From the NCBI GenBank assembly GCA_021158345.1, contig JAGGUV010000068.1, positions 1 to 34,535 of the forward strand: 34,535 nt of DNA, given 5' to 3'. This document shows, piece after piece, positions 1,104-24,537 of this stretch. The notes below the pieces were generated by a model that saw only the letters and a list, made by a program, of their open reading frames with translations, ran no database searches and was not told where the DNA came from. This DNA is from Bacteroidales bacterium (GTDB lineage Bacteria; Bacteroidota; Bacteroidia; Bacteroidales; AUK083). Position numbers and translations under genes: made by a program. Numbering within the stretch: the first letter of the stretch is position 1; the number at the start of each line of letters is the position of its first letter.

Positions 1104-2261
1104 ATGACAGATTTTCAAAATAATCAACAACCTCAGACACAATTGTCTCAAGAAGAAGAGATCGATATAATCGCTCTCGCCAAAACAGTATGGGATAAAC
1201 GAAAAATTATCATCAAAATAACAGTTGTTTTTATGATTATAGGACTTTTTGTAGCTATATTCACACCTAAACAATATTCATCAACTGCTATATTGGTTCC
1301 ACAGACAAGCCAGAGTAATAGCAAAATGGGCGGACTTTCTTCATTGGCTGCCATGGCCGGTTTTAATCTTGACATGGGCAAAAGCGGCACAGAACTTAAT
1401 CCAATGGTTTATCCTCAAATAGTACAAAGCATACCTTTTAGAAAAGAATTAATACAGACAAAACTAAATTTTAAAGGTATTGATCACCAAATCAGCTTTT
1501 ATGACTATTACACTAATCCTGATTATGCTAAATCAAATGTATTAGGTTTTGTAAAAAAATTTACAATCGGTCTGCCTGGAACAATAATTAAAGCTATTCG
1601 GGGGAAAAAAGAAGAAACCGATTATGTAATTACAGATCAAAAACAATTAATTAAACTATCAACTGACGAACAAGATTTAATTGATGCTATTGGGAAAATG
1701 GTCTATTTAAATGTAGAAGACAGAAAAGGGTATCTTACTTTAACATCAATTATGCCAGAGCCATTAGCAACAGCCCAAATGGGTCAGAAAGCCTTAGAAC
1801 TCTTACAAAAATATATTACAAAATTTAAAATCGAAAAAGCACAAGAACGCCTTAAATTTATTACCGAACGTTATAATGAAAAGAAAATGGAATTTAAGCA
1901 GGCACAATTAAACTTAGCTCTTTTTCGTGATAAAAATAAAAATATTATTACAGAAATAGATAAAACAGAAATTGAACGTTTGCAAAGTGAATATCAACTT
2001 ATTTTTAATGTTTATTCTGATCTTGCCAAACAGTTAGAAGCTGCACGCATACAGGTAAAAGAAGATACTCCTGTATTAACAATTATTGAACCTATTACAA
2101 TTCCAACGGAAAGTTTCAAACCAAAAAGAAAACAAATTTTACTTATCTGGACATTTATTGGCTTAATTATTGGAATCGGTTGGGTATTTGGCTTTGAATA
2201 CTTCAAAAAAATTAAAAAAAAATGGAATGAGAATAAAGAAGCAGAAGAAGATGTAGAATAA
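1104..2261 (+). CDS. Wzz/GumC-type chain-length determinant protein
   Basis: 385 residues. The N-terminus 'EEIDIIALAKTVWDKRKIIIK' followed by a membrane segment (about residues 35-53) and 'PKQYSSTAILVPQ' is the classic start of Wzz polysaccharide co-polymerases. A long periplasmic region follows, with a predicted coiled-coil stretch around residues 240-320 (rich in Lys, Glu and Gln). A second membrane segment lies at about residues 345-365 (ILLIWTFIGLIIGIGWVFGF), close to a basic/acidic cytoplasmic tail. No tyrosine-kinase domain is fused. Such inner-membrane proteins set the chain length of O-antigen or exopolysaccharide and cooperate with the SLBB export protein encoded just upstream. The spacing and shared strand imply one operon. 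The polymer made cannot be told from this window. Confidence 0.85.
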   Translation: MTDFQNNQQPQTQLSQEEEIDIIALAKTVWDKRKIIIKITVVFMIIGLFVAIFTPKQYSSTAILVPQTSQSNSKMGGLSSLAAMAGFNLDMGKSGTELNPMVYPQIVQSIPFRKELIQTKLNFKGIDHQISFYDYYTNPDYAKSNVLGFVKKFTIGLPGTIIKAIRGKKEETDYVITDQKQLIKLSTDEQDLIDAIGKMVYLNVEDRKGYLTLTSIMPEPLATAQMGQKALELLQKYITKFKIEKAQERLKFITERYNEKKMEFKQAQLNLALFRDKNKNIITEIDKTEIERLQSEYQLIFNVYSDLAKQLEAARIQVKEDTPVLTIIEPITIPTESFKPKRKQILLIWTFIGLIIGIGWVFGFEYFKKIKKKWNENKEAEEDVE

Positions 2262-2457
2262 TTAATTTTCTGTTCTTTTTATCTTTACGGATACTATTCT
2301 GATGATAAACAAAAAAAATCATTATTTAAACGCATATTTAGCTAAATAATATTTTGATGTGCCCCGAAAATATTATGGCCGGACAATTCCCTTAGTTGTT
2401 ATTGTAAGAAAGTACTTGTATTTTATTTATAGACACTTTTTGAATGTAGAAAATAAA

Positions 2458-4014
2458 TTATAAATTTATATAATGCACTTCAAAATTTTGAGATGAATAT
2501 TCTTTTATAACATCCAATCTGGCTTTTAAAGCTTCTTTATTAGTTTTATATCCTAAAACTCTGTATCCCTGATTTATCAGACTCCAGATTTTTTTGTCAG
2601 ATGTTATTTGTTTATTAAATCTTATCTGCAGGTCATAATCTTTTACAGTATAAAGAACATTGCTGATATACAAATTTAAACCTTTTTCATAGTCCGGGTC
2701 AGGATTACAAAAACAAGAAGAATACACAAAATAATATTTAGGTAAAATTCTTTTAACAACTGTAGCTTTTGTATTAAAGACTTTTTTTTCAGGTTTATAA
2801 GCTTGTTTTATAATTTTTTTCTGTAAATTATAAAGATTGTTTTTATAAACTTTAGTAATAAGAAAACAATTATCTGTCAAACCTGAAAGCAGTATGTCAA
2901 TATCCCCGTCATTATCATAATCGCCCCACTGTGCAGAGCTGTAACATACACCTGTTAAGCCGGAATTGATTTCAACAAAAGTATTGTTTCTATCGTTTCT
3001 GTAAACTTTAGAGATAATAATATTATTTTCGGTTTTTCCTGTGATAAGAATATCAAGGTCACCGTCATTATCATAATCGCCCCAATCGCAACTGCCGTAT
3101 TTTACTCCTGTTAGATTTGCATGAATATCAGAAAATATATCATTCCCATTATTTCTGTATATTTTTGTAATGCAGTAATTTTCATTAACTTCACCTGTAA
3201 GTAAAATGTCAATATCTCCGTCATTATCATAATCGCCCCAGTCAACGGAACTATTTTTAACACCTATAATATTTGCATGAATATCACTAAAATTAGTGTT
3301 AGTATCATTTCTATAAATTTTTGTGATAATATTTTCATTATAGCCTTCACCTGTAAGCAAAATGTCGAAATCTCCGTCATTATCATAATCACCCCAGGTT
3401 ACAGCACCATTGGTAATTCTTATTAATGGAATATTCAAATTTATAAATTTGTTATTTCTTTGATTGCGATAAACCCCTGAAAAAAAATTGCCCGCATTAT
3501 CCTCACCACAGATTACAATGTCATCATCACCGTCCCTGTCAAAATCAGCTACATCCATTGAGGATTTTTTTAAAGGTAAAATACCCGATTTAAAATATTT
3601 AAAGTATTTTCTGTTAATATTAGAATAAATACCTGAAAAAATTTTGTTATTGTCAGTTTCACCTGTAAGTAAAATATCAATATCCCCGTCAATATCAAAA
3701 TCAGAGCACACAACGTCACCTTTGCAAATTTTTTGTATTTTTTTATTAACAAATACAAAATTGTCATTTTTATTATTTTTGTATGTCATGGTAATGATAT
3801 TGTTGTTAATATCTTCACCGCAAACAAAAATATCGAGGTCAGCATCATCATCATAATCAATCCATGCAACTGAAGAATTCATTAGTTTATATAATTTTGC
3901 ATGAATATCAGTAAATTGCTGTGCAAATGATAAATTAAAAAGAAAGAAAAAAATAATAGTTATTATTATTTTTTTTAATAAAAGCTCTTTTTGATTTGAA
4001 AGGTTTATTTTCAT
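2458..4014 (-). CDS. Secreted seven-repeat FG-GAP/VCBS propeller protein
   Basis: 518 residues from the ATG at 4014; an in-frame TTG two codons earlier is less likely. A hydrophobic signal peptide ends near 'LNLSFAQ', so the protein is exported. Residues about 51-414 are seven consecutive repeats of exactly 52 residues, each opening with a D-x-D-x-D-G-D-x-D calcium-loop motif ('WGDYDNDGDIDILLTGE' and variants) and continuing with a 'KIYRN...F.DIHANL.GV' segment. Half a repeat ('FTDIHAKLYKLMNSSVA') precedes the first. Seven such blades suggest a closed beta-propeller of the integrin/FG-GAP type. A separate C-terminal region of about 115 residues follows, ending 'GYKTNKEALKARLDVIKEY', perhaps SPOR-like (weak). 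Ligand unknown. It is convergent with the Wzz gene and not part of that operon. Confidence 0.8.
   Translation of the reverse strand: MKINLSNQKELLLKKIIITIIFFFLFNLSFAQQFTDIHAKLYKLMNSSVAWIDYDDDADLDIFVCGEDINNNIITMTYKNNKNDNFVFVNKKIQKICKGDVVCSDFDIDGDIDILLTGETDNNKIFSGIYSNINRKYFKYFKSGILPLKKSSMDVADFDRDGDDDIVICGEDNAGNFFSGVYRNQRNNKFINLNIPLIRITNGAVTWGDYDNDGDFDILLTGEGYNENIITKIYRNDTNTNFSDIHANIIGVKNSSVDWGDYDNDGDIDILLTGEVNENYCITKIYRNNGNDIFSDIHANLTGVKYGSCDWGDYDNDGDLDILITGKTENNIIISKVYRNDRNNTFVEINSGLTGVCYSSAQWGDYDNDGDIDILLSGLTDNCFLITKVYKNNLYNLQKKIIKQAYKPEKKVFNTKATVVKRILPKYYFVYSSCFCNPDPDYEKGLNLYISNVLYTVKDYDLQIRFNKQITSDKKIWSLINQGYRVLGYKTNKEALKARLDVIKEYSSQNFEVHYINL
2773..3864 (-). repeat. Seven tandem 156-base coding repeats (52 residues each)
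   Basis: The DxDxDGDxD blocks recur at constant 52-residue steps (protein residues 51, 103, 155, 207, 259, 311 and 363 from the ATG), with no insertion or deletion between units. Units 4 to 7 are most alike ('WGDYDNDGD' identical in all four); units 1 to 3 are more diverged (for example 'WIDYDDDAD', with G replaced by A). The repetition is also visible in the DNA as recurring 'ccgtcattatcataatc' blocks. Confidence 0.9.
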
Positions 4015-4110
4015 TTTCAAGGATTTTTATTAAAATTAAGATTAAAAATAATATATTTTTATGAGATATAGCGAGAAAAACATTTAAAAATAAAAAACAT
4101 AAAAAAATAC

Positions 4111-4140
4111 TTTCAAATTAAATTTATAACTTTACCTTTG
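4111..4140 (+). promoter_or_regulatory. Bacteroidota-type promoter for the methylmalonyl-CoA operon
   Basis: The -7 box TACCTTTG (4133-4140) matches TAnnTTTG exactly. A TTTC at 4111-4114 sits 18 bases upstream as a candidate -33 element. The ATG at 4159 follows the box by 18 bases, giving a predicted leader of only about a dozen bases. The promoter overlaps an in-frame TTG (4138), which argues against that codon as a start. Confidence 0.6.
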
Positions 4141-4158
4141 CAAAAAAAAATTTATAGT

Positions 4159-4563
4159 ATGAAAATCACTCATATTGAACACATTGGAATAGCAGTAAAA
4201 AATCTTGAGGAAAGCATAAAATATTATGAAAAAGTACTTGGATTAAAATGTTATTCTATAGAAGAAGTTAAGGATCAAAAAGTAAAGACAGCCTTTTTTA
4301 AAGTTGGTCAAACAAAAATCGAACTTTTAGAATCTACTGATTCTGAGGGTCCTATTGGAAAATTCATTAGTAAAAATGGAGAAGGGTTACACCATATGGC
4401 TTTTGCAACTGAAGATGTTGATGCCAGTTTAAAAGAAGCAGAAGCAAAAGGCATACGTGTAATTGATAAAATTTCAAGAAAAGGCGCCGAAGGATTAAAT
4501 ATTGGATTTTTACATCCTAAATCAACTTTTGGTGTGTTAACAGAACTTTGTGAAAAAAAATAA
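4159..4563 (+). CDS. mce: Methylmalonyl-CoA epimerase
   Basis: 134 residues, the usual family length, starting at ATG 4159 rather than the upstream in-frame TTG, which lies inside the promoter. It interconverts (R)- and (S)-methylmalonyl-CoA between methylmalonyl-CoA mutase and the decarboxylase. The single glyoxalase/VOC fold is shown by '[27 protein letters not shown]'; expected metal ligands are His8, His79 (GLHHMAF) and Glu129 (LTELCEKK). It is the first gene of a five-gene operon; the decarboxylase alpha subunit begins 23 bases after its stop. Known biology of the family and this gene order place it in succinate-to-propionate fermentation. The partner mutase is not in the window. Confidence 0.93.
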
Positions 4564-4586
4564 ATCAACAATATATTAAAAATATC

Positions 4587-6146
4587 ATGAATAGTCAGGA
4601 TAAAATAAGAGAACTTATTGAAAAAAGGAATACCGCAAGACTTGGAGGAGGAGAAAAAAGAATAGTATCTCAGCATAACAAAGGAAAATATACTGCTCGG
4701 GAACGTATTGACATGTTGTTGGACGAAGGAAGTTTTGAAGAATTTGATATGTTTGTAACTCATCGTTGCACAAATTTTGGTATGGAAAAAAACAAAATTC
4801 TCGGCGATGGAGTTGTAACAGGTCACGGAACTATTGACGGCAGGATTGTTTACATCTTCTCACAGGATTTTACTGTTTTTGGAGGTTCATTATCTGAAAC
4901 TTTTGCACAAAAAATATGCAAGGTAATGGATCAGGCTATGAAAGTAGGAGCTCCTGTAATTGGCCTTAACGATAGCGGCGGCGCTCGTATTCAGGAAGGC
5001 GTTAACAGTTTGGCAGGTTATGCCGAAATATTTGAAAGAAATATTTTAGCTTCAGGTGTTATTCCTCAGATATCAGCAGTTTTTGGACCTTGTGCTGGTG
5101 GTGCTGTTTATTCCCCTGCTTTAACCGACTATATTATTATGAAAGAAAAAGCCGGTTATATGTTTGTTACAGGTCCTAAAGTTGTTAAAACTGTTACAGG
5201 CGAGGAAATTACTACTGAAGAATTAGGTGGTGCTGATGTACATTCATCTAAATCAGGCGTTTCTCATTTTAAAGTAGAAAATGAAGAAGAAGGCTTACTT
5301 TTGATTAGAAAATTATTATCATATCTTCCTCAAAACAATATGGAAGACCCTCCTGTAACAAAATGTACTGATCCTATCGACAGAGTTGAAGAATATTTAA
5401 ATGATATTATCCCTGAAAATCCAAACAAACCTTATGATGTTAAAGATATTATTTCTTTAATCGTTGATGATGGAGAATTTTTGGAGGTACATAGAGACTA
5501 TGCAAAAAATATTGTGGTTGCTTTTAGCCGTTTAAACGGAATGCCTGTTGGTATTGTTGCAAATCAGCCTAATTATTTGGCAGGAGTTTTAGATATTGAA
5601 TCATCAAGGAAAGCTGCTCGCTTTGTCCGTTTTTGTGATGCTTTTAATATTCCTATTTTAACATTAGTTGATGTACCCGGATTTTTACCTGGTAGCGGAC
5701 AAGAACATGGAGGAATAATTGTAAACGGTGCAAAACTTATGTTTGCTTATGGCGAAGCTACAGTTCCTAAGGTTACTATTACATTAAGAAAATCTTATGG
5801 TGGAGCTCACGATGTTATGAGTTCAAAACAACTAAGAGGAGACATTAATTATGCATGGCCATCAGCAGAAATTGCTGTTATGGGTGCTAAGGGTGCTATC
5901 GAAGTTCTGGAAGGTAGAAAAATTAAGACAATAGAAACTCAGGAAGAAAAGAAAGAATTTATTGCTAAAGCAGAAAAGGAATACAATGAAAAATTTGCTA
6001 ATCCTTATCAGGCAGCAAGCTATGGTTATATTGACGATGTTATTGAACCAAGAAATACAAGGTTTAGAATAATTCGTGCTTTCCAAACTTTATCGACTAA
6101 GCGTTTAAGCAATCCACCTAAAAAACATTCTAATATACCTTTATAA
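4587..6146 (+). CDS. mmdA: Methylmalonyl-CoA decarboxylase alpha subunit (carboxyltransferase)
   Basis: 519 residues, full length for the acyl-CoA carboxyltransferase family. The protein moves the carboxyl group of (S)-methylmalonyl-CoA to biotin on the small carrier subunit. Visible landmarks are '[21 protein letters not shown]', the N-terminal crotonase-like motif '[20 protein letters not shown]', '[16 protein letters not shown]', and the C-terminal half with '[22 protein letters not shown]' and '[12 protein letters not shown]'. The same family includes propionyl-CoA carboxylase beta subunits; the assignment as decarboxylase rests on the adjacent OadG-, biotin- and OadB-type genes and on the absence of a biotin carboxylase gene. 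It acts at the cytoplasmic face of the membrane complex. Confidence 0.9.
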
Positions 6147-6157
6147 ACAAATCAGTT

Positions 6158-6529
6158 ATGATGAATATTTTAAATAATAATATATTAATGTCAATTGCAA
6201 GTCAGGGTGGCTGGACTATTGCAATTGTAGGATGGCTCGTAGTTTTTATTGCTCTTACTGTTTTAGTTATTATCTTTATTAATATTCCTAAATTAATAAA
6301 TATTAAACTGAAAGGGAAATTGTTAAAAGAAGGAAAAATAAAAAATGAAGATGAAGATTTAAATATTGATGCAGATGTTAACGCTGCTATCAGTACAGCT
6401 TTATTTTTATATTTTAATGAGCTTCATGATGAAGAAAGCAATATTGTAACAATTAAAGATATATCTAAAAAATATACTCCTTGGAGTTCAAAAATTTTCG
6501 GTTTTAATAATATTTTACCAAGACATTAA
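6158..6529 (+). CDS. OadG-type membrane subunit of sodium-pumping decarboxylase
   Basis: 123 residues, small and poorly conserved as usual for this family. One transmembrane helix lies at about residues 18-42 (GGWTIAIVGWLVVFIALTVLVIIFINIPKL), followed by a charged cytoplasmic tail that includes an acidic stretch (KNEDEDLNIDADVNAA) and 'AISTALFLYFNELHDEES'. In known complexes the gamma or delta subunit anchors the carboxyltransferase to the beta channel subunit. Two adjacent ATG codons (6158 and 6161) could serve as start. The gene lies between the carboxyltransferase and the biotin carrier, 11 and 4 bases away. The call rests on topology plus position; sequence similarity alone would be weak. 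Confidence 0.82.
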   Translation: MMNILNNNILMSIASQGGWTIAIVGWLVVFIALTVLVIIFINIPKLINIKLKGKLLKEGKIKNEDEDLNIDADVNAAISTALFLYFNELHDEESNIVTIKDISKKYTPWSSKIFGFNNILPRH

Positions 6530-6533
6530 AAAA

Positions 6534-6959
6534 ATGAAAAAATTCAGATTTAAAATTAAAGGCATCACTTACGATGTTGAAATAAAAAGCTTTGAAAATA
6601 ATGTTGCAGAAATAGATGTTAACGGTACTACTTATAAAGTTGATGTTGATGTTGAAGTTAAAAAAACCAAAACACCTACTTTATTACGAAAGGAAATATC
6701 GAGAAAAATTGGTGAGGGCAAAATAAAGAAAACAGAAAGTACTGGTGTTACACCTATCAAAGCTCCTTTACCAGGAAGCATTATTAAAATATTAGTTAAT
6801 GAAGGTGATACTATTAATAAAGGAGATAATTTGCTTATCATGGAAGCCATGAAAATGGAAAATAATGTGTTAGCAGAAAAATCCGGAATTATAAGAACTA
6901 TTAAAGTAGCTGTTGGAGATACTGTACTTCAAAATGATGTTTTATTGGAAATTGAATAA
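6534..6959 (+). CDS. Biotin carboxyl carrier subunit of methylmalonyl-CoA decarboxylase
   Basis: 141 residues. The C-terminal biotinyl domain (about residues 74-141) contains the canonical biotinylation motif 'EAMKMEN' with the target lysine at position 107, preceded by 'IKAPLPGSIIKILVNEGDTINKGDNLLIM'. The first 45 residues form a separate small beta-rich region (KFRFKIKGITYDVEIKSFENNVAEIDVNG is typical), joined by a Lys-rich linker. The carried carboxyl group is picked up from the alpha subunit and released at the beta subunit, driving Na+ export. The gene starts 4 bases after the OadG-type gene and ends just before the beta-subunit gene, so translation is probably coupled. Confidence 0.93.
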   Translation: MKKFRFKIKGITYDVEIKSFENNVAEIDVNGTTYKVDVDVEVKKTKTPTLLRKEISRKIGEGKIKKTESTGVTPIKAPLPGSIIKILVNEGDTINKGDNLLIMEAMKMENNVLAEKSGIIRTIKVAVGDTVLQNDVLLEIE

Positions 6960-6994
6960 TAACAATGTATTTTAGCATATTAAACAATTATAAA

Positions 6995-8635
6995 ATGAAA
7001 AAAATATTATTTATAATATCATTATTTTTATTTCTATCTACTAATAGTTTTTCTGAAAATTCCGGGCAAGTATCAAATCTTACAAAAGGAAAATGGTTAA
7101 ATAAATCCTCGGGCTATATTCCAAATCCAACTGGTAATTCTGATAGAAATGTTAAAAGAATTAAGGTTATAGAATTTAATAAGGATCATTCTTTTTATAT
7201 GGACTCAGTAAAAATGGTTTTTACAGGGAAATGGGAAATAATTAATGAGTCCAAAAATGAAAATGAATTTAAGATAATTTTACATTTTGATAAAAAAATT
7301 ATTACTCATTTTCACAAAAAACTTGACCCAAATGCTTTAAATTCAGCATATGATACAGAAAAGGAAACACTAAAGCTTGGTGATAGAGAATTATTATATA
7401 AAGACAATATTTTATATAATAGCAAGGCTGAGATATACAAAAATTATAGTGGTGCAATTGCAGGAATAATCACATTTTATGAATTTTCAGGTTTTAATAA
7501 TGTGACTTCCGGTAACCTGATAATGATATTAGTAGGAATATTTTTTATATTCTTAGCAATTCGTTTCAATTATGAACCTTTATTATTAATACCTATTGGT
7601 TTTGGTATTTTAATAGGGAATATACCTATGTTTCAGGCAGTAGATTTTAATTTGAAATTAGGAATTTATGAGCCGGGAAGTGTTATGAATTTCTTTTATC
7701 AGGGTGTTGTTCAAGGCTGGTATCCTCCATTGATTTTCCTTGGTATTGGAGCTATGACAGATTTTTCATCATTAATTTCAAATCCTAAGTTAATGTTATT
7801 AGGAGCAGCAGCACAAATTGGTATCTTTGCAACCTTCTTAGGTGCTTTATATCTTGGTTTTGCCCCACCTGAAGCCGGTGCTATTGGAATTATTGGTGGT
7901 GCTGACGGACCTACTGCTATCTTTCTTTCATCTAAGTTAGCTAATGGTCTTAATGTTATGCCTAACGGACAAGTAGTGAAGAATTTAATCGGGCCTATTG
8001 CTATTGCAGCATATTCATACATGGCTTTAGTCCCTGTTATTCAGCCTCCTATTATTAAACTTCTTACTTCTAAAAAAGAAAGAAAAATACATATGAAACC
8101 GCCCAGAGCTGTTTCTAAACTCGAAAAAATTATGTTCCCGATTGTAGCTCTTTTAATTACAGGTTATATTGCTCCTACTTCATTACCTTTATTAGGGATG
8201 TTATTTTTTGGTAATTTAATGAAAGAATGCGGTGTTACTAATCGCTTAGCCGAAACTTCCAGCCATGCTATTATTGATATTATAACAATTTTGTTGGGGT
8301 TAACTGTTGGAGCTTCTACTCAGGCTGATGTATTCCTTACACCATCCTCAATATTAATATTTATTTTAGGAGCATTATCATTTATGGTTGCTACTGCTGG
8401 TGGTGTTATTTTTGCAAAAATAATGAACTGGTTTTCTCCCAAAGACAATCCTATTAATCCAATGATTGGAGCAGCAGGTGTTTCAGCCGTTCCTGACAGT
8501 GCACGAGTGGTTCAAAATATGGGCTTAAAAGCAGATCCTTCTAATCACTTGTTAATGCATGCTATGGCACCTAACGTCGCAGGAGTTATCGGTTCTGCTG
8601 TTGGTGCCGGTATCTTGCTTAGCTTTTTATTATAA
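6995..8635 (+). CDS. Na+-translocating decarboxylase beta subunit with extra N-terminal domain
   Basis: 546 residues from ATG 6995, where a clean signal peptide begins (MKKILFIISLFLFLSTNSFS); an upstream in-frame ATG at 6965 would add ten residues that spoil it. From about residue 160 on it is a normal OadB/MmdB: 'GFNNVTSGNLIMILVGIFFIFLAIRF', 'EPLLLIPIGFGILIGNIPMF', 'GIIGGADGPTAIF' with the essential aspartate at 304, and the C-terminal 'AAGVSAVPDSARVVQNMG'. Biotin decarboxylation here is coupled to Na+ export. Unusual is the block at residues 21-155: soluble, beta-rich, with repeated 'GKW' motifs, expected outside the cytoplasmic membrane. It looks somewhat lipocalin-like, but I cannot name it. 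It is the last gene of the operon. Confidence 0.9.
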   Translation: MKKILFIISLFLFLSTNSFSENSGQVSNLTKGKWLNKSSGYIPNPTGNSDRNVKRIKVIEFNKDHSFYMDSVKMVFTGKWEIINESKNENEFKIILHFDKKIITHFHKKLDPNALNSAYDTEKETLKLGDRELLYKDNILYNSKAEIYKNYSGAIAGIITFYEFSGFNNVTSGNLIMILVGIFFIFLAIRFNYEPLLLIPIGFGILIGNIPMFQAVDFNLKLGIYEPGSVMNFFYQGVVQGWYPPLIFLGIGAMTDFSSLISNPKLMLLGAAAQIGIFATFLGALYLGFAPPEAGAIGIIGGADGPTAIFLSSKLANGLNVMPNGQVVKNLIGPIAIAAYSYMALVPVIQPPIIKLLTSKKERKIHMKPPRAVSKLEKIMFPIVALLITGYIAPTSLPLLGMLFFGNLMKECGVTNRLAETSSHAIIDIITILLGLTVGASTQADVFLTPSSILIFILGALSFMVATAGGVIFAKIMNWFSPKDNPINPMIGAAGVSAVPDSARVVQNMGLKADPSNHLLMHAMAPNVAGVIGSAVGAGILLSFLL

Positions 8636-8719
8636 TTTGTAAATATCTTTTTCAAATTATACATAATTATCAAGAATATTTATTAATCAGAAAATATAAA
8701 AAATATAAAAATAGAAATT

Positions 8720-10126
8720 ATGGATAAGACACAAGAATATAAAATAAAAGATATTTCATTGGCTGGCTGGGGAAGAAAAGAAATGGAAATAGCAGAGAAA
8801 GAAATGCCAGGTTTAATGTCATTAAGAAAAAAATATTCTGAAACAAAACCTTTAAAAGGTGCAAGAATAACAGGCTCATTACACATGACAATACAGACAG
8901 CTGTATTAATTGAGACTTTACGTCAGCTTGGAGCTGACATAAGATGGTCGAGTTGTAATATTTTTTCAACACAGGATCATGCTGCTGCTGAGATTGCCAG
9001 AATTGGAATACCTGTTTTTGCCTGGAAAGGTGAAAGTATTGAAGAATATTGGGAAAATTTAGTTGAGTCATTAAGTTTTCCCGGTGGCAAAGGCCCAAAT
9101 CTTGTTGTTGATGATGGCGGAGATGCTACTCTTATGATTCACAAAGGTTATTATTATGAAGAAAACCCTTCGCTTTTTGATAAAAAACCCGAAAATCACG
9201 AGGAAGCTGTTCAGCTTCAGATATTAAAAAAAGAATATCAAAAAGATAAAACAAAATGGCATAGAACTGTTAAAGAATGGAAAGGCGCTTCCGAAGAAAC
9301 TACTACCGGTGTTCACCGACTTTATCAGATGATGGAAAAAGGTACTTTACTTGCTCCTGCTATTAATGTTAACGATTCTGTTACAAAATCAAAATTCGAT
9401 AATTTATACGGTTGCCGTGAGTCTCTCGCTGATGGTATTAAAAGAGCTACTGATGTTATGATAGCTGGAAAAGTTGTTGTTGTTTGCGGTTACGGTGATG
9501 TTGGAAAAGGCTCTGCAAAATCAATGCGTGGCTTAGGTGCAAGAGTTATTATTACTGAAATTGACCCTATTTGCGCTTTACAGGCTGCTATGGAAGGCTA
9601 TGAAGTTAAAACTCTTGAGGAGGTTGTTGACCAGGGCGATATTTTTGTTACTACTACAGGTAACCGTGATGTCATCACTGCTGAGCATATGTCGAAGATG
9701 AAAGATCAGGCTATTGTTTGTAATATCGGTCATTTTGATAATGAAATCCAGGTTGATGAATTAAATCATTTTCCCGGCATAAAAAAAATTGTTGTGAAAC
9801 CTCAGGTTGATCAGTATCTTTTCCCTGACGGACATTCTATTTTCTTACTTGCCGAAGGCAGACTTGTTAATTTGGGCTGTGCAACAGGACATCCTTCTTT
9901 TGTTATGAGTAATTCATTTACAAACCAAACTCTTGCTCAAATAGAATTATGGAATAATGATTATAAAATTGACGTTTACAGATTACCTAAAAAATTAGAC
10001 GAAGAAGTAGCACGTTTACACCTTGAGCATATTGGCGTTAAACTTACTAAAATGACAAAAAAACAGTCTGAATATATTGGATTTCCTGTTGAAGGTCCTT
10101 ATAAACCTGATCATTATAGATATTAA
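8720..10126 (+). CDS. ahcY: S-adenosylhomocysteinase
   Basis: 468 residues, normal for bacterial AdoHcy hydrolases. It splits S-adenosylhomocysteine into adenosine and homocysteine, removing the inhibitory product of SAM methyltransferases. Recognisable stretches are the N-terminal '[20 protein letters not shown]', '[21 protein letters not shown]', '[14 protein letters not shown]', the NAD-binding loop '[18 protein letters not shown]' (residue 255 region), '[14 protein letters not shown]' and the C-terminal lysine/tyrosine tail '[10 protein letters not shown]' that contacts NAD in the neighbouring subunit. It stands alone on the + strand, 84 bases after the decarboxylase operon, and is followed by a strong terminator. 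No SAH riboswitch is seen upstream. Confidence 0.97.
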
Positions 10127-19630: not shown

Positions 19631-20284
19631 TTAATCTTTTAAATTATAAGCACTGTCAAAGAAATCAAACTCAAAAATCACTGATTTTTTAAATGCTTCA
19701 AGCATATTTTTTTTAAGCTCTTCTGTTGCAAGCTCTGCATTTTTGTTTACAATATCAATTAGTTTCTGATTATAAATTTCAAATTCATCGCCTGAATATG
19801 TGTCAATCCATTTTTGATATTTATTGTTTTTTTTTGAATTTTTAACAATTGATAATCCCACTTCGCGATAAACCCAAAAACATGGTAAAAGTGCGGCTAA
19901 TGATTCTTCATAAGTTTGTGATTTTGCTGTTGACAATAAAAAATTAGTATATGCTTTATTAATTTTACTGGCTTTTTTGTTTAAAACAATATTAAAATAT
20001 CCAATAAATTCTTCATGTAAAAGATGTTCTATTTCCAGACCGTCTCTGGCCATATCAAGCAGAAATTTCATCTCGTCTACATCTTCGGCTTTAACAGCTG
20101 TTATTGCCAAAGCTCTGGAATCTTCAATTATATAGATGCTGTCTTGTGAAATATATTCATTAAACTTTTCTTTTGATAAAATGCCTTTTGACAATTCAAC
20201 ACAAAAAGGATGAGAGATTATTTTCTCAATATCTTTCTCGGCAGACTGCCATAGCTTATCTGTAAACAATATTTTATCTTTCAT
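19631..20284 (-). CDS. tenA: TenA aminopyrimidine aminohydrolase (thiaminase II)
   Basis: 217 residues. The TenA signature 'ALLPCFWVYREVG' places the nucleophilic cysteine at position 135 and Tyr139 after it; Glu205 ('SVIFEFDFFDSAY') is the other expected catalytic residue. TenA enzymes hydrolyse 4-amino-5-aminomethyl-2-methylpyrimidine, a thiamin breakdown product, to hydroxymethylpyrimidine (HMP), and can split thiamin. The ATG lies 4 bases after the thiD stop, so the two are translationally close, matching the pathway order: TenA makes HMP, ThiD phosphorylates it. Last gene of the TPP-controlled operon. The all-helical fold and length are normal for the family. Confidence 0.93.
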   Translation of the reverse strand: MKDKILFTDKLWQSAEKDIEKIISHPFCVELSKGILSKEKFNEYISQDSIYIIEDSRALAITAVKAEDVDEMKFLLDMARDGLEIEHLLHEEFIGYFNIVLNKKASKINKAYTNFLLSTAKSQTYEESLAALLPCFWVYREVGLSIVKNSKKNNKYQKWIDTYSGDEFEIYNQKLIDIVNKNAELATEELKKNMLEAFKKSVIFEFDFFDSAYNLKD

Positions 20285-20288
20285 TTTT

Positions 20289-21098
20289 TTATTCCCAAAA
20301 TTTATAAAAGTGATGTACAGGACCGTGTCCCTTGCCTATTTTATAATCAGCACCAAGTTTTATTGCATTGTCAATATAATTTTTAGCTTCTTTAATAGCT
20401 ATTGGCAAACTATAGCCTTTTGCTAAAAATGATGCTATTGCCGATGATAAAGTGCAGCCTGTGCCATGAGTATTATTTGTTTTTACCCTCTTGGTTTTTA
20501 GTTCGATAGTTTGATTTGTTTCTCTGTCGTAAAAAATATCGGTCAGTTCTTCTTTATCAAAATGACCGGCTTTTAACAAAACCGATCTTGCTCCGAAATC
20601 TGTCAGCTGTTTTGCAGCCCGGGCAAGGTCATTATTATTTTTTATTTTAGTATTTAATAAAATTTCGGCTTCAGGAATATTAGGTGTAATAACCTTAGAT
20701 AAGGGAAACAGCTCTTTAACGAGAGTTTCAATAGCATCATCCTGCAATAATTTATCGCCTGAAGTGGCAACCATTACAGGGTCTAAAACAATATTTTCGA
20801 TATTATATTTCTTTAATGTTTCTGAAACTGTTTTAATGACTTCGGAAGAATGCAACATTCCTATTTTAATAGCATCAGCACCAATATCGTCAAGTACTAC
20901 TTTTATTTGTGTTTCTATTGTTGATACGGGAACAGGGTGGATATCAAAAACTCCCTGAGTATTTTGAGCCGTGATAGCTGTTATGGCAGACATACCAAAA
21001 CATCCGAGTGCAGACATTGTTTTCAAATCTGCCTGAATACCTGCTCCACCACCACTGTCAGAGCCTGCTATTGTTAAAACTCTTTTATGCTGTTTCAT
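20289..21098 (-). CDS. thiD: Hydroxymethylpyrimidine (phosphate) kinase
   Basis: 269 residues, normal for ThiD. It phosphorylates HMP to HMP-P and then HMP-PP, the pyrimidine donor for ThiE. Ribokinase-fold landmarks: 'VLTIAGSDSGGGAGIQADLKTMSALGCFGMSAITAITAQNT' at the N-terminus, 'DAIKIGMLHSSEVI', 'NIVLDPVMVATSGDKLL', 'LITPNIPEAEILL'-like 'VITPNIPEAEILL', and the C-terminal anion hole/base 'TNNTHGTGCTLSSAIASFLAKG' with the catalytic cysteine/aspartate region of the family. It is separated from thiL by 82 bases, in which I find no clear promoter, and is 4 bases from tenA. Confidence 0.95.
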   Translation of the reverse strand: MKQHKRVLTIAGSDSGGGAGIQADLKTMSALGCFGMSAITAITAQNTQGVFDIHPVPVSTIETQIKVVLDDIGADAIKIGMLHSSEVIKTVSETLKKYNIENIVLDPVMVATSGDKLLQDDAIETLVKELFPLSKVITPNIPEAEILLNTKIKNNNDLARAAKQLTDFGARSVLLKAGHFDKEELTDIFYDRETNQTIELKTKRVKTNNTHGTGCTLSSAIASFLAKGYSLPIAIKEAKNYIDNAIKLGADYKIGKGHGPVHHFYKFWE

Positions 21099-21180: not shown

Positions 21181-22185
21181 CTACTTAAAATGATTATATC
21201 CTTTTTTATTAAGGTCTATATTTTTATTATTTTTAAAAAAATAAATTTCAGGACTGCCTTCAATAATTCTCCCGATTTTAAATAATTGACGATTAAATTT
21301 TGTTTGAAAATTTTGTGCAATTTCTTGAAATTTTTCTTTATCAACAGTTAAAAGTAAACAATAATCTTCGCCACCTGAAACAGAAATATCATAAATATTC
21401 CAATTATTTTTTTCTGAAATATTTTTTAATTCATCAGAAAGAGGAATATTTTCTAGATTTATTTCTGCAGCACATTTCGAAGCGTCAAGAATATGTTTCA
21501 AATCAGAGCTAATACCATCGGACACATCCATCATAGCATTAACACCTTTTTGAGATGCCAGCCACTGACCGGCAAAAATCTCAGGTTCAGGCATAAGATG
21601 CTTTTTTAATAAATATTTAGCATCATCTTCATTGTCAGGAAGATTATTAAGAATAACATTTAAACCTCCGGCAGAGTCACCCAAAAAATCAGTAACGCAA
21701 ATAATGTCATTATTTTTTGCTCCTGACCTGTATTTTGTTTTTTTGTTTTCTATTTCACCAACAACACAAATATTTATCACCAGCATATCAGGCGATTTAG
21801 TTGTATCGCCGCCAAGCAAAGGCACATTATATTTTTCAGATAATTTTTGATATCCTGAAATAAATTCATCTAACCATTCTACATCAGTATTTTTTGGAAT
21901 ACCTACAGACAAAAAAGAAGAATTTGCTATACCGCCCATAGCAGCAATATCGCTTAAATTTACTGCAAGACTTTTATATCCCAATTCAAAAGCTGAAATT
22001 TTTTCTTTTTTAAAATGAACATCTTCAACTAAAAGGTCGGTTGTGATAATAAACGATGTGTTTTTATTTTTAGGAATAACTGCACAATCATCACCAATAC
22101 CTTTCTGACCGTTTTTTATCAGGTCATTAAATTTATCAGAAAAACGTGCAATAAAACCAAATTCTCCTATTTTGTTTAGTTTCAT
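21181..22185 (-). CDS. thiL: Thiamin-monophosphate kinase
   Basis: 334 residues. It phosphorylates thiamin monophosphate to thiamin pyrophosphate, the last step and the riboswitch ligand. Family features: N-terminal 'EFGFIARF', metal-binding 'GIGDDCAVI' (residues 30-37), 'ITTDLLVEDVHFKKEKIS', 'LAVNLSDIAAMGG', 'LLGGDTTKSPDMLVINI', 'AMMDVSDGISSDLKHIL' and 'SGGEDYCLLLTV'. The first bases of its ATG overlap the thiE stop as ATGA, a sign of coupled translation. Because ThiL uses only the monophosphate, the pathway here depends on ThiE condensation; no thiamin pyrophosphokinase gene is present in the operon. Confidence 0.95.
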   Translation of the reverse strand: MKLNKIGEFGFIARFSDKFNDLIKNGQKGIGDDCAVIPKNKNTSFIITTDLLVEDVHFKKEKISAFELGYKSLAVNLSDIAAMGGIANSSFLSVGIPKNTDVEWLDEFISGYQKLSEKYNVPLLGGDTTKSPDMLVINICVVGEIENKKTKYRSGAKNNDIICVTDFLGDSAGGLNVILNNLPDNEDDAKYLLKKHLMPEPEIFAGQWLASQKGVNAMMDVSDGISSDLKHILDASKCAAEINLENIPLSDELKNISEKNNWNIYDISVSGGEDYCLLLTVDKEKFQEIAQNFQTKFNRQLFKIGRIIEGSPEIYFFKNNKNIDLNKKGYNHFK

Positions 22186-22835
22186 TTATTTTTATTATTT
22201 AAAGGTGTAACAACCTGTTTTTTCAGTTTTTTTGTAGCAAGATAAGGGTCATCAGCGGAACAAATAGCTGAGACAACAGAGATTCCATGAGCCCCGGCAT
22301 TAATAATATCTTTTGCATTTGTTAAATTAATACCGCCAATACCCACCATTTTATGTTTTGATATTTTTGCAATATCTCTAATTCCCTGCAATCCAAGCTG
22401 AGTGTTTATATCAGTCTTGGTAGGAGTTGAAAAAATTGGGCTTAAACCAATATAGTCAAGGTCTTCAAATTTGTTTGCCTCTATAGCTTGTTCCAAATTT
22501 TCTACTGACAATCCAATAATAGCGTCAGCTCCGAGAATTTGTCTGGCAATTTCATAAGGCATATCGCTTTGTCCGATATGCAATCCATCTGCTTCTACAG
22601 CAAGGGCTATATCCAGCCTGTCGTTTATTATTAATGGAATATTTTTATCTTTTAGAATGTTTTTTACTTTTACAGCTAATTCATAAAATTTTCTTGTGGA
22701 GCAATCTTTTTCTCTTAACTGCACCATTGTTACGCCTCCTTTCACAGCCTGTTCAATAATATATTCCAGACTTCTACCCTTTGAAAGTTTTCTATCTGTA
22801 ACAAGATAAAGGCTTAAATCAATATTTTTTTTCAT
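22182..22835 (-). CDS. thiE: Thiamin phosphate synthase
   Basis: 217 residues from ATG 22835; an ORF start at 22901 would run back into thiM and add a non-homologous tail. ThiE joins HMP-PP and thiazole phosphate into thiamin monophosphate. The TIM-barrel landmarks are 'LYLVTDRKLSKGR', 'GGVTMVQLREKDCSTRKFYELA', 'IPLIINDRLDIALAVEADGLHIGQSDMPYEIARQILG', 'IIGLSVENLEQA', 'DYIGLSPIFSTPTKTD' and 'MVGIGGINLTNAKDIINAGAHGISVVSAI'. The diphosphate- and Mg-binding aspartates (ND, QSD) are present. It starts 10 bases after the thiM stop and its stop overlaps the thiL start. Confidence 0.95.
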   Translation of the reverse strand: MKKNIDLSLYLVTDRKLSKGRSLEYIIEQAVKGGVTMVQLREKDCSTRKFYELAVKVKNILKDKNIPLIINDRLDIALAVEADGLHIGQSDMPYEIARQILGADAIIGLSVENLEQAIEANKFEDLDYIGLSPIFSTPTKTDINTQLGLQGIRDIAKISKHKMVGIGGINLTNAKDIINAGAHGISVVSAICSADDPYLATKKLKKQVVTPLNNKNK

Positions 22836-22845
22836 ATGTTTAAAA

Positions 22846-23640
22846 TTAATACAAAAATATGTCTTTAATTTCTTTTTCAGAGAGATTAAACAAAGTATCA
22901 ATAAAATTCAATTGCAAAGAGCCTGGACCTTTTGAAAATTTAGCAGCAATTTCACCTGTAATTCCCATAACAGCCATGGCATTAGCAGCAGCAATCAAAT
23001 AATTTTTGTTGACAGCAGCAAAGGCACCTGTAATAGCTGTGGCAGTGCAACCCATTCCAGTAACTTTTGGCATCATATCATTACCATTTTTTATCTCAAT
23101 TACATTTTTACCATCAGTAATATAATCGGTTTTACCGCTAACAGATACAATAGAATTTGTTTGCAAAGCAAGTTGTTTAGCTGATTCTACAGCTGAGCCA
23201 GAAGATTCCATACTGTCAACGCCTTTAGTTTTAGTACCGGCTTTAACAATACTCATAATTTCAGAAGCATTTCCACGAATAATATCAGGTGAAGCTTCAT
23301 TAATTATCATATTACAGACATTGGTTCTATATTCAGTAGCCCCTGCTCCAACAGGGTCTAAGATAAAAGGTGTTTTCAGAAGTTTGGCTTGTTTAGCAGC
23401 TATCAACATTGATTCGACCCATTTTTCGCTTAAAGTTCCAATGTTAATAACCAATGCTGAAGCAATGCCTGTCATATCTTTTACTTCTTCTTTAGCATGA
23501 GCCATAACAGGAGAAGCTCCAATAGCAAGTAAAGCATTAGCAGTATTATTCATTACCACATAATTAGTAATGTTATGTACTAAAGGGGATTTCTTTCTTA
23601 TCTTTTTTAAATCATTAGAAATAGAATTTACTGTTATCAT
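22846..23640 (-). CDS. thiM: Hydroxyethylthiazole kinase
   Basis: 264 residues, normal length. It phosphorylates 4-methyl-5-(2-hydroxyethyl)thiazole, the salvaged thiazole half of thiamin. Visible features: 'SPLVHNITNYVVMNNTANALLAIGASPVMAHAKEEV', 'LVINIGTLSEKWVESML', 'FILDPVGAGATEYR', 'IIRGNASEIMSI', and 'VTGMGCTATAITGAFAAV' with the catalytic cysteine region. As the second gene of the TPP-switch operon it is 25 bases after the methyltransferase. It provides the thiazole partner that ThiD/TenA provide for the pyrimidine, so the operon covers salvage of both halves. Confidence 0.96.
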   Translation of the reverse strand: MITVNSISNDLKKIRKKSPLVHNITNYVVMNNTANALLAIGASPVMAHAKEEVKDMTGIASALVINIGTLSEKWVESMLIAAKQAKLLKTPFILDPVGAGATEYRTNVCNMIINEASPDIIRGNASEIMSIVKAGTKTKGVDSMESSGSAVESAKQLALQTNSIVSVSGKTDYITDGKNVIEIKNGNDMMPKVTGMGCTATAITGAFAAVNKNYLIAAANAMAVMGITGEIAAKFSKGPGSLQLNFIDTLFNLSEKEIKDIFLY

Positions 23641-23665: not shown

Positions 23666-24367
23666 TTATTTTATTGCACAAATTGCCACATAGTCACCTG
23701 AATCATAACCAGGTTTAGGTTCTTCAACTTCATTATTTGAATATAATGGATGTTTAGTTAAGGTTTGAGCAAATTTTAAATTATTAAAACCTGTTTTTTT
23801 AAGGATATCTATTTTTTCAGATGTTGTACGCCACTTAGCTTCTTTTACAAATTCTATTGGATAAGGATTCAGAGGTTGAATATCTGATAAAAGTTTGTGA
23901 TTCCAAGTTCCCAAAGTCATAGCAAGATTATAAATAAGAGCATAAGAGCTTTCTTTTGGCACATCGAGGACAATAATTTTCCCTCCAGATTTAAGAGCAT
24001 TATAAGCATTAAGAAAAGCTTTTTCAAGATTTTTTATATAGCTCGGAGTACCATTTAAAACAATAGTATCATATTTATTTTTACCGAGGTAAGTGTTTTC
24101 AGCAGTACCAATTTTAACATTTAGTCCTCTTTTACGAGCTATTTCAGCCATACCTTCGGAAGGTTCTATGCCGTTTTTAATAATAATATTAAAATTTTTC
24201 TCTAAAAGCATTTCAAATAATCCGCTACCACAACCAATAGAAATTGTATTTCCGGGATTGTCAAGGAAATAAGCCAGCAATTTTAATTCAGATTCTAATA
24301 AATTTTTATTTTTTAAAAACCAAGAATCATAGTCTTCTGCAAATTTGTCAAATGTAATTTTTCCCAT
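23666..24367 (-). CDS. SAM-dependent methyltransferase under TPP-riboswitch control
   Basis: 233 residues. It is a class I SAM methyltransferase: motif I 'TISIGCGSGLFEMLL' (residues 41-55), acidic loop 'NGIEPSEGMAEIARKRG', 'YDTIVLNGTPSYIKNLEKAFLNAYNALKSGGKIIVLDVP', and a YD.WF-type N-terminus ('FDKFAEDYDSWFLKN'). Substrate unknown; no thiamin enzyme I know has this sequence. It is the first gene of the thiamin salvage operon and directly follows the riboswitch expression platform: the A and U of its AUG are the last two bases of the 42-base palindrome. thiM begins 25 bases after its stop. It could modify a thiamin precursor or analogue, or be unrelated cargo. The methyltransferase call is firm; the link to thiamin rests on position. 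Confidence 0.85.
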   Translation of the reverse strand: MGKITFDKFAEDYDSWFLKNKNLLESELKLLAYFLDNPGNTISIGCGSGLFEMLLEKNFNIIIKNGIEPSEGMAEIARKRGLNVKIGTAENTYLGKNKYDTIVLNGTPSYIKNLEKAFLNAYNALKSGGKIIVLDVPKESSYALIYNLAMTLGTWNHKLLSDIQPLNPYPIEFVKEAKWRTTSEKIDILKKTGFNNLKFAQTLTKHPLYSNNEVEEPKPGYDSGDYVAICAIK

Positions 24368-24407
24368 AATAAAAGCCGTTTTATACGTATAAAACGGCTT
24401 TTATTAT
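24366..24407 (-). promoter_or_regulatory. Riboswitch expression platform: perfect 42-base palindrome over the start codon
   Basis: Every base from 24366 to 24386 is the reverse complement of 24387-24407. As RNA on the minus strand it folds into a 19-bp stem with an ACGU loop and a GCC/GGC core. The 3' arm ends with U-rich sequence and then the AUG, of which A and U are in the stem. The 5' arm (24400-24391) can instead form ten pairs with AAAACGGUUU at 24448-24439, the 3' strand of aptamer stem P1. TPP binding would free it to close the hairpin, ending transcription (weak U tract) or hiding the start codon, or both. Confidence 0.85.
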
Positions 24408-24438
24408 ATTAGAAAATTTTTCAAGATCTAAAAAAGTT

Positions 24439-24525
24439 AAACCGTTTTCCTACGCTGTTATTATACATATCAGGTTAAAGGGTGTGTTCTCAGCCTTTTT
24501 TTTTGATTGGCACCCCTAACAGTTT
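24439..24525 (-). ncRNA. TPP riboswitch (THI element) aptamer
   Basis: On the minus strand the conserved blocks appear in order: AGGGGUGCC, GGCUGAGA, ACACCCUUUAACCUGAU and ACAGCGUAGGA. P1 is AAACUGUU (24525-24518) with AACGGUUU (24446-24439), eight pairs with one G-U. P2 is GGGU/ACCC. P3 is only GCC/GGC with an A-rich loop. P5 has UGU/ACA where the usual sequence is UGG/CCA, a compensatory change that keeps pairing. It precedes the methyltransferase-thiM-thiE-thiL-thiD-tenA operon and is expected to lower expression when TPP is plentiful. Confidence 0.95.
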
Positions 24526-24529
24526 TTTA

Positions 24530-24537
24530 CAAAATTA
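24530..24537 (-). promoter_or_regulatory. Candidate -7 box of the thiamin operon
   Basis: Minus strand TAATTTTG (24537-24530), exact TAnnTTTG, ends five bases before the P1 stem. Transcription would start essentially at the first aptamer base. No clear -33 element is visible. It lies between the ribonucleotide reductase stop and the aptamer, so the operon can be started independently of the upstream gene. Confidence 0.5.

Follow-up and report, generated by a model that had tools for sequence, protein, structure and literature searches.

Among vitamin pathways, thiamin salvage has been mapped well. Two kinds of described gene arrangement come closest to the locus considered here. The first comprises the TenA/YlmB operons for the salvage of base-degraded thiamin in Bacillus and other organisms, which share with the operons described below a TPP switch, tenA, thiD, thiE and sometimes thiM, as well as the logic of regaining HMP, but for which no methyltransferase has been described in the searchable literature. 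The second comprises the bacimethrin clusters of Clostridium botulinum, Paenibacillus and Microcystis, in which a methyltransferase is found with thiD-, thiM- and thiE-type genes under thiamin control (PMC5627462, PMC12345177). This bacimethrin enzyme is the sole described methyltransferase in thiamin-related operons that was found in the searchable literature. These clusters are defined by a thymidylate synthase (CMP hydroxymethylase) and thiaminase I and make an antivitamin, whereas TenA is the constant partner in the operons reported here. Neither thymidylate synthase nor thiaminase I was recognised by eye around the methyltransferase gene in our locus or in nine related operons, and assignment to a bacimethrin-type cluster was therefore rejected at the level of gene lists.

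The window, which is the whole stretch of 34,535 nucleotides of Bacteroidales DNA that was analysed, contains a gene for a methyltransferase (MT) followed by five thiamin genes (Table 1). Gene order, a common strand and small gaps (25 bp between MT and thiM, a 4-bp overlap of thiE and thiL, 82 bp between thiL and thiD, and 4 bp between thiD and tenA) fit a single operon, MT-thiM-thiE-thiL-thiD-tenA. The initial annotation had placed a methyltransferase open reading frame at 23666-24367 ahead of salvage genes, and this description holds: the coordinates are exact, thiM, thiE, thiL and thiD score over curated cut-offs, and tenA is present. The true start of thiE probably lies downstream of the listed TTG. 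The tenA product reaches 127 bits against TIGR04306 (E 7.5e-37), 3 bits short of the curated cut-off of 130. The active-site cysteine of thiaminase II, which marks the cysteine type, is kept in the tenA copies of the MT operons, and Cys135, Tyr139, Tyr163 and Glu205 are invariant in these copies and throughout an alignment of 11 TenA sequences. Elsewhere in the window, an S-adenosylhomocysteine hydrolase was recognised by eye on the opposite strand, 13.5 kb from MT (8720-10126, +). A further cluster (4138-8635, +) resembles, by eye only, a methylmalonyl-CoA decarboxylase-type sodium pump, with genes for an epimerase, a carboxyltransferase, a small subunit, a biotin carrier and a membrane beta subunit.

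Table 1. Features of the methyltransferase operon and its leader in the window.
Feature	Position	Strand	Basis or remark
TPP riboswitch aptamer RF00059	24430..24527	-	cmscan 63 bits vs gathering 54.3, full-length
Perfect long hairpin, 20 pairs, AAUAAAAGCCGUUUUAUAC/GUAUAAAACGGCUUUUAUU	24365..24410	-	fold of 24360-24530
MT, class I SAM-dependent methyltransferase (predicted)	23666..24367	-	233 aa, ATG start; operon's first gene
thiM, hydroxyethylthiazole kinase	22846..23640	-	TIGR00694 4.1e-91, over cut-off
thiE, thiamin-phosphate synthase	22182..22901	-	TIGR00693 7.6e-66, over cut-off
thiL, thiamin-phosphate kinase	21181..22185	-	TIGR01379 3.1e-95, over cut-off
thiD, HMP / HMP-phosphate kinase	20289..21098	-	TIGR00097 5.8e-104, over cut-off
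tenA, thiaminase II, cysteine type	19631..20284	-	TIGR04306, PF03070 3.7e-36, alignment

The two features that define a TPP-riboswitch-controlled thiamin salvage operon, an upstream TPP aptamer and downstream thi salvage genes on the same strand, were both found. The leader of 171 nucleotides (24360-24530) folds at -45.4 kcal/mol (z = -5.3 vs shuffles), and its 20-pair hairpin has a U-rich end and touches the MT start codon with its 3' side. A consensus terminator scan did not flag this hairpin, which is a probable expression platform acting on either transcription or translation. As judged by eye, the 3' closing strand of the aptamer (GAAAACGG) could pair with CCGUUUU of the 5' arm of the hairpin and so serve as an anti-hairpin. 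Such pairing of the closing-stem strand with the hairpin arm would follow the usual logic of TPP off-switches. The genome of the window has two TPP switches, the second of which (L034, G000:C129, 1514-1610, 63.2 bits) lies upstream of a gene for a 791-aa TonB-dependent receptor that follows directly (1656-4031) and probably imports thiamin or a vitamer across the outer membrane.

Five generic methyltransferase models of Pfam recognise the MT protein above their cut-offs, PF13489 best of all (4.3e-11), and no curated NCBIfam model does so. Together with these domain models, an invariant glycine-rich SAM motif I (GCGxGLFE), an invariant E68-P69 for the acidic residue after strand 2, and a fold match to 1vlm establish it, at the level of sequence and fold, as a class I SAM-dependent methyltransferase. 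The 1vlm protein (Thermotoga maritima TM1293), an uncharacterised class I methyltransferase that appears in the PDB as a 'possible histamine N-methyltransferase', is its closest solved relative both by sequence (107 bits) and by fold (E 3.7e-17, TM 0.70); the two share a short N-terminal YDxWF region and the SAM site at an identity of about 35%. The nearest curated models are the carboxyl O-methyltransferases BioC and Tam, which have the same fold. MT scores 31 bits with BioC (cut-off 185) and about 27 bits with Tam (cut-off 320), so that membership in either family was rejected, as was membership in UbiE or any other curated family, where scores are likewise far under the NCBIfam cut-offs.

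All orthologues carry an inserted lid (about residues 150-170) in which W155, P165 and Y169-P170 are invariant, and in the alignment C46, E52, N105-G106, W179, H206-P207 and Y226 are further orthologue-invariant residues that have no counterpart in the outgroup. The TM1293-like outgroup, drawn from Bacteroidota and archaea, differs from MT in lying away from thi genes and in being without the lid insertion, 1vlm itself standing outside this residue alignment. The nearest relatives lack the aromatic lid set of W155, P165, Y169-P170, W179 and H206-P207 or differ in it, and by this alignment the invariant aromatic lid insertion separates the MT family from its nearest, TM1293-like relatives. An AlphaFold prediction, for which the input alignment consisted of the window copy and one locus, was fairly confident in the core and put the lid region at pLDDT < 50, and the substrate pocket was therefore not interpreted. 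We would guess that a closed aromatic pocket of MT might suit a small heteroaromatic substrate.

In the order, MT orthologues are patchily distributed. When a profile of four orthologues was run against 393 genomes of the order with a threshold of 1e-45, ten orthologues from nine family codes were recovered, all with E <= 1e-102, and no other match appeared down to 1e-45. These bacterial copies are 54-64% identical to the window copy. Among 395 genomes of the class no further orthologue turned up, the matches being distant relatives with an E of 6.5e-24 at best, and among 296 genomes of the phylum there was, the window itself aside, no match stronger than 2e-31; a scan of genome contigs with a single-sequence query gave one locus. 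Plasmids yielded only distant relatives of at most 36% identity and viral contigs yielded none, so that carriage by phage or plasmid was rejected. Outside the bacteria, orthologues were found at 1e-66 or better in 10 of 229 genomes of the Thermoproteota class reached from Metallosphaera javensis, and a sample of the phylum added three more. Some archaeal copies look frameshifted or interrupted (L070, 740-1440, -; L056; L063, about 8672-9379, -); the copy in G490 lies in two frames, that in G657 has an in-frame stop near its start, and a weak match in G666 is a relative in advanced decay whose subfamily is uncertain. In the tree, from which 1vlm was left out, MT orthologues stand apart from the TM1293-like outgroup (100/100), and the ten bacterial copies form one clade (100/100) nested among the archaeal copies. 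This topology suggests, among the groups sampled, one transfer between archaea and Bacteroidales with an inferred direction.

According to the initial annotation, homologues might be expected beside thi genes or under TPP aptamers in other genomes. Such an association, rather than its absence, is what the order displays: MT lies inside a thi operon in all ten genomes, by which a chance neighbour was rejected, and a TPP switch is found upstream in nine. The exception is the operon of G008, where no switch was detected even at E 5. The related proposal that MT is the first, most directly regulated gene is true of seven of the nine operons with a TPP switch and fails for G973 and G1232, in which the gene is internal and follows thiF. 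Four layouts occur. The commonest, TPP-MT-thiM-thiE-(thiL)-thiD-tenA, is that of the window, G972, G1192, G954 and G951, and of G013 as far as the contig end in thiD. The others are TPP-..thiE-thiG-thiH-thiF-MT-tenA-thiD (G973 and G1232), TPP-MT-thiM-thiE:tenA fusion-thiD-thiE-thi4 (G1169) and MT-tenA-thiD (G008). Across these layouts thiM, thiE, thiL, thiG and thi4 vary, and the constant partners of MT are thiD (10/10) and tenA (9/10). A 439-aa thiE-tenA fusion is encoded at L088 (6235-7554, -), in an MT operon that also has thi4, the gene for a sulfide-dependent thiazole synthase. At L087 and L089, MT-tenA-thiD come after thiF in thiG-thiH-thiF operons of genomes without thiC, and these organisms would make their own thiazole and scavenge the pyrimidine.

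The link with TenA extends from gene order to gene content. A member of the TenA family is present in 9 of 10 order genomes with MT as against 1 of 30 without it, and the Fisher p of 3.6e-7, which ignores kinship, is too small because the bacterial copies form one clade and the ten operons are therefore not ten independent observations. The tenth MT genome, G013, in which no TenA was found, has a completeness of 79%, and the contig with its MT operon stops inside thiD. The sole genome among the 30 that has TenA and no MT, G019, runs thiM-thiE-tenA-thiD without the methyltransferase, from which it follows that MT is accessory to TenA and dispensable for the pathway. Most of the archaeal genomes compared have TenA irrespective of MT (10/10 with MT vs 26/30 without, p = 0.56), and co-occurrence is therefore uninformative in archaea. 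Archaeal gene neighbourhoods provide a thiamin link that is real but thin. A thi gene lies near MT in 3 of 13 loci: a divergent tenA is 35 bp away in the archaeon G473, and thiC is about 2.6 kb away in two closely related Metallosphaera-related genomes. At about 10 of the 13 loci no thi gene is nearby, and with so weak a link the ancestral role of MT may be broader. In two other Thermoproteota genomes MT is directly downstream of a methionine adenosyltransferase gene, an arrangement in line with real use of SAM; at L134 (5703-7745) and L136 (7907-9959) the two genes are on the same strand with a gap of about 120 bp.

Taken as a whole, these comparisons support an undescribed methyltransferase family that is linked with thiamin salvage and with TPP switches and that probably provides a missing step of vitamin B1 salvage. 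On balance, we favour the view that MT is a SAM-dependent accessory enzyme dedicated to the salvage of the thiamin pyrimidine through TenA. Operons that lack thiM and have de novo thiazole genes nevertheless keep MT-tenA-thiD, which, of the candidate roles in the initial annotation (these also include detoxification and an uptake role), favours the pyrimidine (HMP) side over the thiazole side, and the substrate of MT would thus be a pyrimidine-side compound. Similarly, G973, G1232 and G1169, which have the de novo thiazole genes thiG-thiH-thiF or thi4, are all without ThiC, so that the pyrimidine is their missing half. When TPP is low, the riboswitch would permit expression of the operon, and MT would methylate a pyrimidine-side breakdown product of thiamin, a vitamer or an inhibitory relative. 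TenA and ThiD would then convert the pyrimidine to HMP and HMP-PP, which ThiE would join to a thiazole obtained by ThiM salvage or by de novo synthesis. Methylation would thereby widen or protect the substrate range of TenA and would not be needed for conversion of amino-HMP to HMP. In a more specific version, which is weakly held, a methylated nitrogen or sulfur on the 5-methylene would form a cationic leaving group resembling the thiazolium of thiamin, and the TenA cysteine might, speculatively, displace it. Neither a methyltransferase acting in TenA salvage nor methylation of a thiamin pyrimidine vitamer in the course of salvage was found in the searchable literature, outside of which lie most subscription papers, and priority is accordingly uncertain. 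It is conceivable, if rather doubtful, that the SAM-dependent step gives organisms without ThiC access to a pyrimidine source beyond the reach of any known enzyme, through either a TenA substrate activated by methylation or a route to HMP independent of ThiC, and that it was exchanged between Thermoproteota and Bacteroidales.

The main rival, to which we assign a low but real likelihood, is that MT serves in detoxification, methylating and thereby inactivating antivitamin analogues before ThiD or TenA can make poisonous thiamin analogues from them. The targets might be bacimethrin, another analogue of HMP, or a toxic by-product of salvage such as a thiol or an amine. Detoxification would explain the company of ThiD and TenA, the TPP control, the patchy distribution (10 of 393 genomes) and the dispensability seen in G019, and its case is helped by the release of antivitamins such as bacimethrin in nature (PMC12345177). 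However, TPP-repressed regulation and the tight tenA link also fit a salvage step, and no gene for analogue export or resistance stays with MT. In addition, such antivitamins are not known from the places where the Thermoproteota with orthologues live, which counts against this explanation. The genomic evidence does not separate detoxification, which we still regard as improbable, from salvage.

A substrate from the thiazole branch, or thiamin as such, is unlikely; examples would be S-methylation of the ring-opened thiol or formation of an ester on a thiazole carboxylate. The presence of thiM next to MT in 7 of 10 operons speaks for this reading, as do the carboxyl O-methyltransferases among the weak nearest curated families (BioC 2.1e-7, trans-aconitate 3e-6), but these matches fall far under the cut-offs, and in G973, G1232 and G008 the MT operon is without thiM yet has tenA and thiD. 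With thiM missing in 3 of 10 loci, a thiazole role was rejected as the common denominator.

Even less likely is the making of HMP independently of ThiC, with SAM as methyl donor to a pyrimidine precursor. ThiC is missing from 9 of 10 bacteria and 7 of 10 archaea with MT, and operons with thiG-thiH-thiF or thi4 and without thiC carry MT-tenA-thiD instead. However, most relatives without MT also lack ThiC, so its absence is not specific: ThiC is present in 66 of 191 such relatives (MT versus ThiC absence, p = 0.17), and the archaeal proportions are 3 of 10 with MT and about 68 of 216 without. MT as a substitute for ThiC was rejected on these grounds. Furthermore, TenA is a salvage enzyme, and a polar class I methyltransferase would not be an obvious means of installing the C2-methyl of HMP. 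Finally, an unrelated housekeeping or passenger gene acquired by chance with a tenA-thiD cassette would agree with the nesting of a single bacterial clade in archaeal sequences and with the position of most archaeal copies away from thi genes, but is hardly credible given that tenA and thiD have been kept through four layouts, nine families and 54-64% identity and that at least one archaeal copy has a tenA neighbour.

A conserved methyltransferase under TPP control and tied to TenA would imply either that a circulating thiamin vitamer or damage product has been overlooked or that cells protect the pathway from analogues by a novel means. Many bacteria with MT are without thiC and must scavenge pyrimidine, and the activity of MT would therefore bear on which organisms supply others with vitamin B1.
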